Source of the DNA: Lentisphaeria bacterium
GTDB taxonomy: Bacteria; Verrucomicrobiota; Lentisphaeria; Oligosphaerales; Oligosphaeraceae
DNA length: 41,702 nucleotides
Direction of reading: 5' to 3'
Assembly: GCA_024405215.1 (NCBI GenBank)
Contig: JAKSPB010000024.1
Span: 1-41,702, forward strand
Shown here: positions 6,538 to 15,727 of the stretch, piece by piece
Numbering within the stretch: the stretch's first letter is position 1
Layout: every line of letters begins with the position of its first letter
Made by a program: the position numbers and the translations under genes
Notes under the pieces: model-generated
The model's database searches: none
Told to the model about the DNA's origin: nothing
The model's input: only the letters and a program-made list of their open reading frames with translations

Positions 6538-7488
6538 CTAGAACTCCTTTCCTTGGGCGAGGGCGTTTCCTTTAAAAGCCTCGCCGGGGTGGCGAAAATC
6601 CGGAATGAAATTGGCATCGCCGCACTGGGGTTGCAGGAAGACGCGTCGGAAGCCCAGCTCCTCTACGCAGTCCATGACGCGATTGTATTCTTCGTCGGTG
6701 ACGATGCGGGTGAATTTCCCGCGGCGGTGGCATTCGGGCATGGGGCGGAACTGCCGCATGACGGAGATGGGGAGGCGTGGGCCGAACTCCTCATAGAGCG
6801 CGCGAAGGATGGCCAGGGAGTTTTCCACTTCGCCCGGAAGCACTAGGTGGCGGACCAGCACGCCGCGGTTGGCCGCCATTTCGCCGGTTTCGTCAAAGGG
6901 GCGCAGGAATCCCGCGCGGTCCACCAGGAATTTCAGCGACTCCATGGCGATCTGCGGGTAGTCTTCACGGGCCATGCAGGTCTTGGCCAGCGCCGCGTCG
7001 GCGTATTTGAAATCCGGCAGGAAGATTTCGACGCCGTTGTCCAGTGCGTCCTGCAGGGTTTCGACATTGCTGTAGCCGCTGCTGTTCCAGACAACGGGTA
7101 GCCAGCAATCCGCCTTCCGGACCAGCTTCAGGACTTCGCGCAGATGCGGCCAGTAATGGTCGGGGGTCACGAAGTTGATGTTGCGGATGCCTTTTCCCGC
7201 CAAGGCGAGAATGCGTTCCGTTGCCTCCTGGACGTTCAGAAAGTCACCGACGTGTTCTGTGGAGAGCTGGTAGTTCTGGCAGAAGAAGCATCCGCAGGAG
7301 CATCCCGTGAGGAAGACGGTTCCGCTGCCGTCCTTTCCCACCAATGGCGGTTCCTCGCCAAAATGCGCTTCAATGGCGGCAATGTGCAGTTCCGCGCCCT
7401 CGCCGCAGAAGCCGTGCTGGCCATGCAGACGGTCAACGCCGCATTTTCTGGGGCAGAGTTCGCAATGGTTGTATTCCGAAAGCTCCAT
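6538..7488 (-). CDS. Radical SAM protein, PflX/PflA-activase-like
   Basis: 316 residues. The radical SAM CX3CX2C motif is at C63, C67 and C70 (TGCSCGCFFCQN), with an extra Cys at 65. An N-terminal cysteine cluster at C9, C12, C16 and C28 (CELCPRKC...GFCG) is typical of the COG1313/PflX group related to pyruvate formate-lyase activases. The substrate of this group is not established, and no glycyl-radical enzyme gene is nearby. The start codon overlaps the hisA stop (TAATG), so the two genes are translationally coupled. Whether the neighbours imply a shared pathway is unclear. Confidence 0.88.
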   Translation of the reverse strand: MELSEYNHCELCPRKCGVDRLHGQHGFCGEGAELHIAAIEAHFGEEPPLVGKDGSGTVFLTGCSCGCFFCQNYQLSTEHVGDFLNVQEATERILALAGKGIRNINFVTPDHYWPHLREVLKLVRKADCWLPVVWNSSGYSNVETLQDALDNGVEIFLPDFKYADAALAKTCMAREDYPQIAMESLKFLVDRAGFLRPFDETGEMAANRGVLVRHLVLPGEVENSLAILRALYEEFGPRLPISVMRQFRPMPECHRRGKFTRIVTDEEYNRVMDCVEELGFRRVFLQPQCGDANFIPDFRHPGEAFKGNALAQGKEF

Positions 7489-8240
7489 TATCGATATTTT
7501 TTCAGAATGTCGTAGGGAAGATTGCCGCCGAAAAGGTCCAGGGCGCTTCCTACGGTGAAATCAATGCGTCCATTCCCTGCCGTCTCAATGGTGCGGATGT
7601 CTTCCAGGCTGCGTATGCCGCCGGCGTAGGTCACGGGCGCATCGCACCATTCTGCCAAATGGCGCACAAGAGTTTCGTCAATGCCCTGCCGACGGCCTTC
7701 CACGTCAACTGCATGGATGAGAAATTCGCCGCAGGCTTCTTCCAGTTGGTCGAAGGTCTGGCGGGAGAGTGTCAGGCCGGTGAGTTTCTGCCAGCGGTCG
7801 CAGGCGACCACGTAGTTGCCATCCACGGCCTTGCAGGAGAGATCTAGCACCAGCCGTTTCCGAGGGATAGTGCGACGCAGTGCATCCAACCGCGCAGGGG
7901 CGAAATCACCGTCCACGAAGAGATACGAAGTCACGATGACCGCTGCCGCGCCTGCCTCCAGCCATTCCGTGGCGTTTTCGGGGGTGATTCCGCCGCCCAG
8001 CTGCAGGAAGTCCGGGCAAGCGGCCAGGGCATCGCGGGCTGCGGCGTCATTGCCGGGACCCAGTTTGATGACATGCCCGCCGCGCAGGCCGTCGGCACGG
8101 TACTTCCGGGCGAACCAGGCAGGGGATTCCGCGGCGACGAAATTCTCCGTCACGGCGTCATGGGCGTTGTCCTGGAGAGTGGCGCCGACGATTTGCTTGA
8201 CGCGACCGTCATGAAGATCGATGCAGGGGCGAAAGCGCAT
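7488..8240 (-). CDS. hisA: ProFAR isomerase HisA, eukaryotic (HIS6) type
   Basis: Histidine pathway (beta-alpha)8-barrel isomerase, 250 residues. The sequence follows yeast HIS6 rather than the common bacterial HisA: RPCIDLHDGRVKQIVG at the start, GGHVIKLGPGND, FLQLGGGI, VIVTSYLF, LVLDLSCK, FLIHAVDVEGRRQGID, and FTVGSALDLFGG near the end. Predicted catalytic aspartates are D8 and D133. It starts 6 bp after the esterase stop and overlaps the radical SAM gene. The histidine gene hisB lies about 5.5 kb away in another operon, so the his genes are dispersed here. This type is known in a minority of bacteria. Confidence 0.92.
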   Translation of the reverse strand: MRFRPCIDLHDGRVKQIVGATLQDNAHDAVTENFVAAESPAWFARKYRADGLRGGHVIKLGPGNDAAARDALAACPDFLQLGGGITPENATEWLEAGAAAVIVTSYLFVDGDFAPARLDALRRTIPRKRLVLDLSCKAVDGNYVVACDRWQKLTGLTLSRQTFDQLEEACGEFLIHAVDVEGRRQGIDETLVRHLAEWCDAPVTYAGGIRSLEDIRTIETAGNGRIDFTVGSALDLFGGNLPYDILKKYR

Positions 8241-10613: not shown

Positions 10614-10967
10614 TTACGCGCGGGCGGCCTTTGCCTTCTCGACGAGCTGCTGGAAAGCGGCGGCGTCGGTGACGGCGAGGTCAGCGAGCATCTTGCGGTT
10701 GATTTCGATGTTGGCCTTGTTGAGGCCATCGATCAGCCAGCTGTATTTGAAATCGAGGGCGCGGCAGGCAGCGTTGATGCGCTGGGTCCACAGCTGACGG
10801 TAGGCAATTTTCTTGTCTTTACGTCCGACGTAGGCGTTGGCCATGGCTCGATCCGTGGCGGTATACGCCATGCGGATGAGCTTGCTGCGGGTGCCGCTGA
10901 AGCCCTTGGCCATTTCGAGCACGCGCTTGCGGCGGGCTCTGGATGCGGGTGCGTTCGTTGCTCTCAT
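10614..10967 (-). CDS. rplT: 50S ribosomal protein L20
   Basis: 117 residues, basic; binds 23S rRNA early in 50S assembly. Characteristic segments are RARRKRVLEMAKGFSGTRSK, a variant AYVGRKDKKIAYRQLWTQRI, and the helical C-terminus NRKMLADLAVTD. It is preceded by GGAG and lies 34 bp after rpmI in the conserved infC-rpmI-rplT order. In many bacteria L20 represses this operon by binding its mRNA; no leader structure was identified here. A strong terminator follows. Confidence 0.97.
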   Translation of the reverse strand: MRATNAPASRARRKRVLEMAKGFSGTRSKLIRMAYTATDRAMANAYVGRKDKKIAYRQLWTQRINAACRALDFKYSWLIDGLNKANIEINRKMLADLAVTDAAAFQQLVEKAKAARA

Positions 10968-11001
10968 TGTTCAGTACTCCAAGCTAGATGGTTGACATCG
11001 A

Positions 11002-11202
11002 TTACAAACCGTAGGGGAAACAGGCCTTCATGCGGGAGAGCTCGGTGCTCTTGATCTCCTCGGGCTGGCCCAGACGACGCTTGCGGGTGGCGGACTTCTT
11101 GGTCAGAATGTGGCGACCACCTGCACGGTTGTGCATGAATTTTCCCGTTCCGGTCTGCTTGAAGCGCTTCGCGGCGGCTTTTCTCGTTTTCATCTTCGGC
11201 AT
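11002..11202 (-). CDS. rpmI: 50S ribosomal protein L35
   Basis: 66 residues. [20 protein letters not shown] at the N-terminus and [15 protein letters not shown] in the middle are diagnostic of L35. A good AGGAG Shine-Dalgarno lies about 7 nt before the ATG. It sits between infC and rplT as in most bacteria. Confidence 0.97.
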
Positions 11203-11325
11203 TTTGGTTTTCTCCTATTGGGAATGGCTACCGCCGGCTGATACGCCCGGGCGAGGGTAGAGAAAACGAACCCTTTGCCCATTGGCCGGCGCGTCAGTCA
11301 ACAAAACGACGGCAGCACAGTGTTG

Positions 11326-11922
11326 TTAGGCCTGAGGAGCCTCGACTGCGGTGGCAGATGCCTGTTCCTGAGCTTCCTTCTTGGCTGCGGCACGGGCTTC
11401 CGGCCGCACGGAAATGGTGGTGGAGAAGGTCTTCCGGTCCTGCCGGACGGGAGAATCCTGTTTTGCGATGTCCTCCAGCTGCTTGATGAATCGGTTCATG
11501 ATTTCCATGCCGATTTCCTGATGGCTCATTTCACGGCCACGGAACTGAAGGAGAAGGCGGACCTTGTCACCGTGCAGAAGGAATTCGCGGGCATGCTTGA
11601 GCTTGACATTCAGGTCGTTGTCATCAATGACAGGACGGAGCTTGACTTCCTTCAGCTTGGGCTGCAGGAGGTTCTTCTTGGCTTCGCGGGCGCGTTTGGC
11701 CTCCTCGAACTGGTATTTGCCGAAGTCCATGATGCGGGTCACGGGCGGTTCGGATTTGCTGGGAACCAGCACCAAGTCCAGTCCGGCTTGCTGTGCACGG
11801 GCCAGGGCGGTCTCGAAGGTCACGATGCCGACTTGCGCGTTGTTCTGGTCAATCAGACGGACGTCATGACCGCGCAGGAAACGATCTCCAGATTTGAGTT
11901 GCTTCACTCGGTTCAACTCCAT
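11326..11922 (-). CDS. infC: Translation initiation factor IF-3
   Basis: 198 residues. The N-domain (HDVRLIDQNNAQVGIV), the linker with MDFGKYQFEEAKRAREAKK, and the C-domain (EVKLRPVIDDNDLNVKLKHA, then RGREMSHQEIGMEIMNR) are all present. An Ala/Glu-rich tail follows residue about 175. The start is ATG rather than the AUU known from E. coli. No Shine-Dalgarno is visible in front of it. It follows thrS after 65 bp in the classical thrS-infC-rpmI-rplT cluster. Confidence 0.96.
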   Translation of the reverse strand: MELNRVKQLKSGDRFLRGHDVRLIDQNNAQVGIVTFETALARAQQAGLDLVLVPSKSEPPVTRIMDFGKYQFEEAKRAREAKKNLLQPKLKEVKLRPVIDDNDLNVKLKHAREFLLHGDKVRLLLQFRGREMSHQEIGMEIMNRFIKQLEDIAKQDSPVRQDRKTFSTTISVRPEARAAAKKEAQEQASATAVEAPQA

Positions 11923-11987
11923 TGTGGGTGGATTAAGTGCCCGGGGCGGCCGTGTGCCGTCCGGGGCGGTTCTTGCTGAGGATTCAG

Positions 11988-13742
11988 CTATGCCTTCTCG
12001 GCGATTTCCTTCTGGATGGTCTCGATGAAGGCGGGCAGGGCGACGACGTCACCCTTGACGTAGTATTTGCCACCGGCTTTGCTACGGTCGCGGACGGAGA
12101 TGGCGACGGTGCCGTCGTTCTGCTCCTTCTCGCCCACAACCAGCAGGTAGGGGATGCGGATGAGGCCGGCGTTCTTGATCTTGGCGCCGATGGGGCTGGC
12201 GTCCAGGTCGCTGGTGACGCGCAGGCCCTCCAGGCGGAGCTTCTTCTCGATTTCCTTGGCGTAGTCGTTGAACTTCTCGGAGATGGGAAGCACGCGGACC
12301 TGCTCGGGGGCCAGCCAGGTCGGGAAAGCGCCGGCGTAGTGCTCGACGAGGATGCCGAAGAAGCGTTCCAAGGAGCCCAGCAGGGCGCGGTGAACCATGT
12401 AGGGCTGATGGCGGAGGCCATCGGCGCCGATGTATTCCAGGTTGAAGCGCTCGGGCAGGTTGAAATCGAACTGGATGGTGGAAGTCTGCCACTCGCGGCC
12501 GATGGCGTCCTTGATTTTCAGGTCGATCTTGGGGCCGTAGAAGGCGCCGCCGCCTTCGTCCACTTCGTAGCTCATGCCTTCGGCCTTGATGGCGTTCAGC
12601 AGGGCCTCGGTGGCCTGCGCCCATTTTTCGGGAGCGCCGACGGCCTTGGCGGGACGGGTGGAGAGGTATGCCTTGATTTCCTTGAAACCGAAGCATTTCC
12701 AGATGTACATGGAGAAGCGGATGACCTCGCGGATTTCATCCATGATCTGCTCGGGGGTGCAGATGATGTGGGCGTCGTCCTGCGTAAATCCACGGACGCG
12801 CATGAGGCCATGGAGGACGCCTGCCTTTTCGTAGCGGTAGACCGTTCCGAACTCCGCCCAGCGGCAGGGCAGCTCGCGGTAGGAGCGGGGCTTGGTCTTG
12901 TAGATCATGATGTGGAAGGGGCAGTTCATGGGCTTGACGTAGTAGGGATCGCCGTCAATGTCCATGTTGGAGTACATGTTCTCCTTGTAGAAGCCCAGGT
13001 GCCCGGAGGTCTCCCAGAGGTTTGCACGGCCCACGTGGGGGGTATAGACCAGCTCGTAGCCGTTGCGGTAATGGGCATCGCGCCAGAAGGTCTCGATGAC
13101 GTTGCGGATGCGGGCTCCCATGGGATGCCAGGAGACCAGGCCGGGACCGATTTCCTCATGGAGGCTGAAGAGCTCCATTTCGGTGCCAATCTTGCGGTGG
13201 TCGCGCTTCTTGGCCTCTTCCACGCGCTTCAGGTAGTCGTCCAGTTCCTGCTTGGTGGGGAATGCGGTGCCGTAGACGCGCTGCAGCATCTTGTTCTTTT
13301 CGTCGCCGCGGAAGTAGGATCCGGCCACGCCGGTCAGCTTGACGGCGCCGATTTCGGAGGAGTTCTCCACGTGGGGGCCACGGCAGAGATCCACGAAGTC
13401 GCCACAGGTGTAGAGGGAAATCACGCCTTCCTCGGGGATGTCGTCCAGGCGGGAGAGCTTGTAGGTCTGGCCTTTGCTTTCAAAGAGCTTACGGGCCTCT
13501 TCGCGTGAAACCTCGGTACGGACGAAGGGAACCTTCTGCCCGATCATCTTGCGCATCCGGGTTTCGATCTCCTTGAGATCTTCGGGACCCAGGTGGTGTT
13601 CCATGTCGAAATCGTAGTAGAAGCCGTCCTCGGTGGCGGGGCCGATGTCGAACTTGGCATCGGGCCAGAGTTTGGCCACCACGGCGGCCATGATGTGTGC
13701 CGCAGAGTGACGGAGGGTGCTCAGATTTTTGTTGTCAGCCAT
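11988..13742 (-). CDS. thrS: Threonyl-tRNA synthetase lacking the TGS domain
   Basis: Class II synthetase, 584 residues from the ATG at 13742. The editing domain comes first: HSAAH (H12, H16) and the paired DLCRGPH (C120, H124). The catalytic core follows with motif 1 around WHPMGARIRN, motif 2 with RAEFGTVYRYE-like WAEFGTVYRYEKAG, motif 3 with GSLERFFGILVEH, and a C-terminal anticodon-binding domain. The roughly 60-residue N-terminal TGS domain of the E. coli-type enzyme is absent. A TTG start at 13790 would add only 16 residues and would overlap hisB, so it was not chosen. No Shine-Dalgarno is obvious. Confidence 0.95.
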   Translation of the reverse strand: MADNKNLSTLRHSAAHIMAAVVAKLWPDAKFDIGPATEDGFYYDFDMEHHLGPEDLKEIETRMRKMIGQKVPFVRTEVSREEARKLFESKGQTYKLSRLDDIPEEGVISLYTCGDFVDLCRGPHVENSSEIGAVKLTGVAGSYFRGDEKNKMLQRVYGTAFPTKQELDDYLKRVEEAKKRDHRKIGTEMELFSLHEEIGPGLVSWHPMGARIRNVIETFWRDAHYRNGYELVYTPHVGRANLWETSGHLGFYKENMYSNMDIDGDPYYVKPMNCPFHIMIYKTKPRSYRELPCRWAEFGTVYRYEKAGVLHGLMRVRGFTQDDAHIICTPEQIMDEIREVIRFSMYIWKCFGFKEIKAYLSTRPAKAVGAPEKWAQATEALLNAIKAEGMSYEVDEGGGAFYGPKIDLKIKDAIGREWQTSTIQFDFNLPERFNLEYIGADGLRHQPYMVHRALLGSLERFFGILVEHYAGAFPTWLAPEQVRVLPISEKFNDYAKEIEKKLRLEGLRVTSDLDASPIGAKIKNAGLIRIPYLLVVGEKEQNDGTVAISVRDRSKAGGKYYVKGDVVALPAFIETIQKEIAEKA

Positions 13743-13782
13743 GATGTTATCAAAATTGCCGGCTTGATGCGTCGGCGTTGAA

Positions 13783-14379
13783 TTATTCAAGAAGACCTTT
13801 GGTGGAGGGCATTTCGCCTGCCAGGACGGAATCCATTGCGGCGGCGGTTCTCAGGGCTCTTCCGAATGCCTTGAAGATGGCTTCTAGGCAGTGGTGGTTT
13901 TCGTCTCCGGCGAGGAGATCCACATGGAGGGTCATTCCCGCCGTGTTGACCAATGCCTGGAAGAACTCATGGAAGAGCTTGTGGCTGATGCCGCCTGCGA
14001 ACGCTTCGGGGAAGGCGCATCTCCAAGAGAGATGGGGCCTCCCGGAGAGGTCGACGACCGCGCTGGCGAGAGCTTAGTCCAGAGAGATGGTGGCTTCGCC
14101 GAATCTAGTGATCCCGCGCTTGTCACCCAGAGCGATTTTCATCGCCTGGCCAAGCGCGAGTCCCACGTCCTCCATGGTATGGTGTGCATCGATTTGCAAA
14201 TCGCCTTTTGCCTTGAGCTGCAAGGAAAAATGACCATGCTTGAAAGTCGCGTCAAGCATATGGTCGAAGAAGGGCAGTCCCGTGCCGATGACGTTGGTTG
14301 CAGGGCCGCCGTCCAGATTCAGCACCAGGGAGACTTTTGTCTCTTTGGTTTCTCGGTTGATTTCTGCGCTTCTTGGCAT
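13783..14379 (-). pseudogene. hisB: Imidazoleglycerol-phosphate dehydratase, interrupted by an in-frame TAA
   Basis: The reading frame covers a full-length monofunctional HisB (198 codons), but codon 102 is TAA (14074-14076). The first 101 residues carry [15 protein letters not shown] and the first metal motif HHTME. Reading on in the same frame gives ALASAVVDLSGRPHLSW, then FHEFFQALVNTAGMTLHVDL, the second metal motif HHCLE, and the C-terminal GEMPSTKGLLE with a normal TAA at 13783. The interruption falls in the conserved DEALA block, where Glu is expected, so one G-to-T change (GAA to TAA) explains it. There is no frameshift or other lesion, which points to a recent mutation, a sequence error, or readthrough. 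Confidence 0.9.
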
Positions 14380-14515: not shown

Positions 14516-15727
14516 CTACGATTTGATGACGGCGCCAGCCTTCATGACGAATCCAACGTCCTGCATGGCCGAAATGTCCGTCAGGGGATTGCGGGCCATG
14601 GCGATGACGTCCGCCATTTTTCCCTTTTCAAGGGATCCGATGGAATCGCTCATGCGCAGCAGGTCGGCGGCGTTTTGGGTGGCGCAAAGCAAGGCTTCGC
14701 CCGGGCGGAAGCCGAAATCCACCATCAGTTGGAACTCCAGCGCCTGTTTCCCGTGAGGATTCATCGACGTGCCCGCGTCGGTGCCAAATGCGATCTTGAC
14801 GCCTGCCTCGCGGCATAAGCGCAGATGTTCCTTGTGATGCTGCAGGCACAGCTTCGCCTTTTCGATGGTCTCGTCGGGCAGGCCGACGCTTTTCCCGTGT
14901 GCGACAAGCTGGTAGGCGGCGATGATGGTCGGTACGAAATACGTCCCGTTTTCCTTCATGAGCCGGACGCATTCCTCGTCCATCATCATGCCGTGTTCAA
15001 TGGAGGTGATTCCCGCGCGGACCGCCGCCTTGATTCCCGCCGCGCCATGCGCGTGGGCGGAAGACAATTTCCCGTGCATTTTGGCTGTTTCCACGGCAGC
15101 GAGAATTTCGTCGTCCGCCATGTATTGTGCGCCCGGCGCGTCGCCCTTCGACATTACGCCGCCAGTGACCATCAGCTTGATCTGGTCGACGCCGTATTTG
15201 ATGTTGTAGCGGGCAGCTTGCCGGATGGCGCAAGGGGAATCCGCGATACGCAGGGGCGACTGGTAATATTGCGGCATCAGGTGCAGGTCCGAATGGCCGC
15301 CGGTCGGGCCGAGTGCCCAGCCTGAAACGAGCATGCGCGGGCCGATGATGCGTCCCGCTTCGATTTCATTGCGGAGCGCCACGTCGACAAAATCCGTCGC
15401 TCCCTCGTCCCGGATTGTCGTAAAGCCCGCATCCAGGTCCTCCCGTGCGTGGCGCATGGCGTCAAACGCGATGGCGCCCATAAGGTGGTATTCGCCATTG
15501 AAATCATCCTTGACGCCATTCATGTGCGTATGCACATGGCAGTCAATCAGGCCAGGCATCACGAATTTATCCGACAAATCGATGAACTCGTCTATGTTGT
15601 CGGGGGGGGCGGCGCCGTTCAGGATTTGCGTGATTTTGTCATTTTCAACCAGAATCAGCGCATTTTCGCGGATGTCGTCTTCCGAAATGCCTGTAAAGAG
15701 CAGCCCGCATCGAATTGCCTTTGTCAT
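14516..15727 (-). CDS. Metal-dependent amidohydrolase (imidazolonepropionase/prolidase-like)
   Basis: 403 residues of the amidohydrolase superfamily. Metal and catalytic motifs: DCHVHTH near residue 50, the carbamylated-lysine candidate in QIKLMVTGG, SAHAHG, SIEHG, and FGTDAG. The sequence is closest in style to the Xaa-Pro dipeptidase/aryldialkylphosphatase-related group that hydrolyses N-acyl or dipeptide substrates. The ATG at 15727 was chosen because AGGAG precedes it by about 9 nt; the longer frame overlaps lpxA. It has no signal peptide and is the last gene of tyrS-lpxA-amidohydrolase. The substrate cannot be determined by eye. Confidence 0.85.
   Translation of the reverse strand: MTKAIRCGLLFTGISEDDIRENALILVENDKITQILNGAAPPDNIDEFIDLSDKFVMPGLIDCHVHTHMNGVKDDFNGEYHLMGAIAFDAMRHAREDLDAGFTTIRDEGATDFVDVALRNEIEAGRIIGPRMLVSGWALGPTGGHSDLHLMPQYYQSPLRIADSPCAIRQAARYNIKYGVDQIKLMVTGGVMSKGDAPGAQYMADDEILAAVETAKMHGKLSSAHAHGAAGIKAAVRAGITSIEHGMMMDEECVRLMKENGTYFVPTIIAAYQLVAHGKSVGLPDETIEKAKLCLQHHKEHLRLCREAGVKIAFGTDAGTSMNPHGKQALEFQLMVDFGFRPGEALLCATQNAADLLRMSDSIGSLEKGKMADVIAMARNPLTDISAMQDVGFVMKAGAVIKS

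Follow-up and report, generated by a model that had tools for sequence, protein, structure and literature searches.

Imidazoleglycerol-phosphate dehydratase (IGPD, HisB) is an internal duplication of a half-domain, with one HHxxE motif in each half (PMC7284861), and in a plant enzyme histidines and glutamates from both motifs coordinate the two manganese ions (PMC10978614). Constrained bacterial genes are known to contain in-frame stop codons often, though not for long (Belinky et al. 2021, PMC7918605), and UAA is reported to be the least leaky stop codon in bacteria (PMC5289835). Here a hisB frame that carries such a stop is compared with these systems. The window, which is the whole 41,702-nucleotide stretch of DNA analysed, is one entire contig of an 82-contig draft genome of 2.98 Mb that is 96.8% complete. 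On its minus strand the hisB frame opens with an ATG at 14379, has TAA as codon 102 (14076 to 14074), continues for 96 sense codons to 13785 and closes with its natural TAA at 13784 to 13782. The parts of the frame are as follows.

13782 to 14379, minus strand: hisB, imidazoleglycerol-phosphate dehydratase, 198 codons plus the natural TAA, broken at codon 102; the only IGPD gene in the genome.
14077 to 14379, minus strand: 5' piece of 101 codons, which encodes the first half-domain; H66, H67 and E70 form the first HHxxE motif.
14074 to 14076, minus strand: in-frame TAA, codon 102; Glu (GAG or GAA) in nearly all relatives; predicted beta-hairpin turn in the second half-domain.
13785 to 14073, minus strand: 3' piece, 96 codons, with the second HHxxE motif (H162, H163 and E166); first in-frame ATG, GTG or TTG at codon 143.

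A sequence-only reading had claimed that a single TAA at 14074-14076 splits hisB and that the frame reads on without a stop for another 96 codons, which include the second metal motif. Both claims were borne out by reading the frame and by profile matches, as each piece matched IGPD and HisB models, with contiguous ranges on the PF00475 profile (positions 1-69 and 71-144 of 144). With the stop read as X, the whole frame scored 199 bits against PF00475 (cut-off 27) over positions 1-144 of 144. Both HHxxE motifs were invariant in a 23-sequence alignment, and the frame as a whole was 83-84% identical to the HisB proteins of two species of the same genus. This identity, together with the 45 of 45 other matched genomes of the order without an internal stop, excludes a chance frame. 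In an AlphaFold2 prediction made with Glu in place of the stop (mean pLDDT 91.7), the frame folds into two repeated half-domains; residue 102 forms the turn that joins strands 93-100 and 103-110 as the opening hairpin of the second half-domain.

The interrupted hisB was the single IGPD match in the whole genome, and the search for a second copy that the sequence-only reading had proposed returned no intact one. The rest of the pathway was surveyed as eight other his genes, with histidinol-phosphate phosphatase outside the survey. All eight (hisG, hisE, hisI, hisA, hisH, hisF, hisC and hisD) were matched and had no internal stops; the impression that hisA is intact was thus right and extends to seven further genes. 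The hisA gene lies in the window.

7488 to 8240, minus strand: hisA, intact, hisA_euk type.

This gene matched the 'hisA_euk' model TIGR02129 at 331.6 bits, far above the usual bacterial HisA model.

The named relatives identified through HisB similarity were Lentisphaeria/Victivallales assemblies (horse faeces, ruminant gut) and Oligosphaera ethanolica. Among 110 relatives, residue 102 was Glu in 102, Asp in 6 and Gly in 2, in agreement with the expectation that HisB normally has Glu here; the codon was GAG in 70, GAA in 32, GAC in 4, GAT in 2 and GGC in 2. One same-genus species has GAA and GAG is also found in the genus, so that one or two base changes would yield TAA. A search of 48 genomes from the order found hisB in 46, and an internal stop occurred in this genome only (0 of 45 others). 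An intact orthologue is present in sister species and the stop is private to this genome, as in a recent nonsense pseudogene. We lean toward reading the stop as a genuine nonsense allele, young in evolutionary terms, by which the genome's only hisB is inactivated. The main rival, less likely but possible, is that the stop is a consensus or assembly error, in which case the true codon 102 is a sense codon, HisB is normal, and strains were collapsed or bases miscalled over a short stretch. A single transversion from the same-genus GAA would suffice for such an error, the genome is a draft in 82 contigs, and the named relatives are mostly metagenome assemblies. The intactness of all the other his genes found is what an error predicts as well, which counts against the young allele, and the rest of the hisB frame, intact and with a signature of selection, is also in keeping with an error.

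This signature was obtained from a codon model in which the window branch had its own omega, estimated at 0.107-0.109 compared to a background of 0.07, a difference that was not significant. Setting omega to 1 on the window branch was rejected for the whole gene (worse by 5.8 lnL units) but not for codons 103-198, where the 3' piece alone is a weak test and constraint is not sharply estimated. Selection has thus acted on the frame during most of its history after it parted from the sister species, and because the window branch is still under purifying selection, any loss of hisB must be recent. An omega that is not significantly raised over the whole branch is expected of a young loss; it is compatible with a nonsense allele of recent origin, with an error and with a tolerated stop.

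The changes private to this genome were concentrated around the stop.

14053 to 14085, minus strand: codons 99-109, with the private replacements P99S, E102stop, R106S, V107A and I109V in the alignment of relatives.

The window HisB carries seven private changes at positions where four close relatives all agree, and five of the seven fall within 11 codons (permutation P = 0.0004). With the stop left out, four of the six private replacements lie no more than 7 codons from it (P = 0.0003; 0.0014-0.0075 for radii of 10 and 15), but the radius was picked post hoc and these P values are suggestive; of a loss of constraint since the mutation, the four replacements are likewise no more than suggestive. 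Among the 110 relatives, 109 have Pro at position 99, and S106, A107 and V109 are found in some other HisBs. An isolated base error would not bring four nearby replacements at sites otherwise invariant in close relatives, whereas a local mutational event or a badly resolved stretch could give such a cluster. The confinement of the unusual changes to about 11 codons is in keeping with an error too, and it weighs against the young allele to the extent that the stretch could be badly resolved. As a source of the cluster, template copying was considered and rejected, as the window held no 12-mer match except the trivial one, and a 10-base near-repeat shortly downstream (CCATCTCTCT) was unconvincing. 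An exact search of viral contigs with the mutated stretch gave no match.

We additionally examined whether interior stops are frequent in this assembly by comparing 632 kb of the genome with about 600 kb of sequence from relatives, almost entirely a single same-genus species. At >=70% identity there were 65 non-overlapping matches; three were flagged, and two of these were antisense shadows of open genes (70-81% identity). Of some 63 conserved genes that could be compared, hisB was thus the only real one broken by an interior stop. Flags below 70% identity were short low-identity or shadow frames, with the two-strand translation read for the largest only. A codon-statistics scorer was discarded because antisense frames score high, and a six-frame posterior scan was discarded at 18% sensitivity, having missed hisB; the sister-genome comparison was used instead. 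Because no other interior stop was found in this sample, the assembly is not error-rich, and the site is interior to the 41.7-kb contig. Both observations argue against a consensus error.

The surroundings of hisB also distinguish this genome from its relatives.

11988 to 13742, minus strand: thrS, which immediately follows hisB in nearly all relatives with a long enough locus.
14516 to 15727, minus strand: amidohydrolase, Xaa-Pro dipeptidase-like by profile matches, between lpxA and hisB.

The hisB gene lies directly upstream of a thrS-infC-rplT cluster (10614-13784, minus strand), and hisB and thrS are adjacent in most Lentisphaeria genomes examined. Same-genus and near relatives have the order tyrS-lpxA-hisB-thrS(-infC). 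The amidohydrolase stands between lpxA and hisB in this genome only, and is missing there in other near relatives as well as in the two same-genus species. The search of family genomes gave no close relative of it, and the best matches from the rest of the order belong to other families and reach about 33% identity, which makes acquisition by horizontal insertion probable. A promoter-like site lies at 14438-14411, between the amidohydrolase and hisB. The insertion and the hisB stop are both private to the lineage, with no demonstrated link between them. The thrS gene is essential. The sequence-only reading had placed essential operon neighbours on both sides of hisB; this stands for thrS downstream but not for the immediate upstream gene, which is the genome-specific amidohydrolase without a counterpart in the sisters.

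Could the stop be read through? Under this explanation, which the sequence-only reading had offered as an option and which we consider unlikely, the stop is real and readthrough is frequent enough to supply HisB, as leaky or regulated expression. The window-branch dN/dS below 1 is the signature used for tolerated, short-lived in-frame stops in bacteria (PMC7918605). However, none of the 45 tRNA genes found has the anticodon UUA, so that no suppressor tRNA was found, and UAA is reported to be the stop least prone to leak (PMC5289835). TAA is also an ordinary terminator here, ending cysS, infC, tyrS, rpsD, hisA and other genes of the window. No relative has a stop at this codon; recoding would call for a stop kept in relatives with selection on both sides, and the codon is sense in the 45 other matched genomes of the order. 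Nothing unusual was seen in RNA structure at the stop (z = -0.5), and no Rfam element was found there. Reassignment of TAA would likewise entail many in-frame TAA codons and loss of its terminator role, whereas TAA terminates genes and hisB alone was interrupted in the sample.

We find it hardly credible that the gene has been split into two assembling half-proteins with one HHxxE motif each. The two halves of HisB are homologous (PMC7284861), the stop lies not far into the second half-domain and the private changes cluster around the break. But no ATG, GTG or TTG occurs in frame before codon 143, i.e., for 40 codons, so that reinitiation cannot supply the second half, and a start at codon 143 would remove two strands and a helix. 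A split at the half-domain junction (near residues 85-92) was ruled out, as the model places the break about 10 residues into the second half, at a hairpin turn away from the junction and with no start after it. The lack of a tRNA for UAA, the low leakiness of this codon and the 40 codons without a start leave readthrough, reassignment and a split protein unsupported. Very improbable, too, is the broader proposal of a real, tolerated stop giving low and possibly regulated HisB by UAA readthrough or from two half-domain pieces, with the clustered replacements as adaptations.

Among the options given by the sequence-only reading, a very recent loss of histidine synthesis is thus the best supported, by purifying selection on the frame, the intact rest of the pathway and the sole copy of hisB. 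The young nonsense allele is shown to have in its favor the stop itself, its lack in relatives, the single copy, the intact pathway genes and the continued purifying selection. If the allele is genuine, translation would end at codon 102 and give a 101-residue fragment consisting of the first half-domain and one strand of the second. Since the second metal-binding HHxxE motif is missing, no two-metal active site is expected in this fragment, which would presumably be inactive. Histidine synthesis would then stop at imidazoleglycerol phosphate, and histidine would have to be taken from the surroundings. We infer in this way a real allele that occurs in the population, a loss of HisB activity and auxotrophy of the organism. 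A real allele would represent the first step of amino acid pathway loss in a Lentisphaeria lineage of gut type, all other enzymes found being retained, and the organism would be expected to be a histidine auxotroph. An error would instead serve as a warning against inferring auxotrophies from single genome assemblies.

The window gene resembles known HisB proteins (PF00475; PDB 4qnk, 2f1d and 1rhy) along its full length, before as well as after the stop, in its pair of HHxxE motifs and in its predicted IGPD-type two-half topology. It is unlike them in that, in place of a single unbroken coding frame, it is broken at codon 102 and its first product would be 101 residues long. With stop-codon reassignment and suppressor-tRNA recoding it shares a stop where a conserved amino acid sits; in contrast to these systems, it has no cognate tRNA, the stop is used normally, no other sampled gene is hit and the stop is not conserved. 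Nothing here points to a novel mode of stop-codon decoding. The nonsense alleles of Belinky et al. (2021, PMC7918605) resemble it in the single in-frame stop, the flanking dN/dS below 1 and the lack of retention in relatives, but here the stop occurs in one genome only, where persistence or reversal cannot be followed, and private replacements cluster beside it. The hisB case is ordinary in kind, a small and checkable point and not a new mechanism. What is new beyond the sequence-only reading is this cluster of private replacements at the stop, together with the probably acquired amidohydrolase that breaks the lpxA-hisB-thrS order in this genome only.
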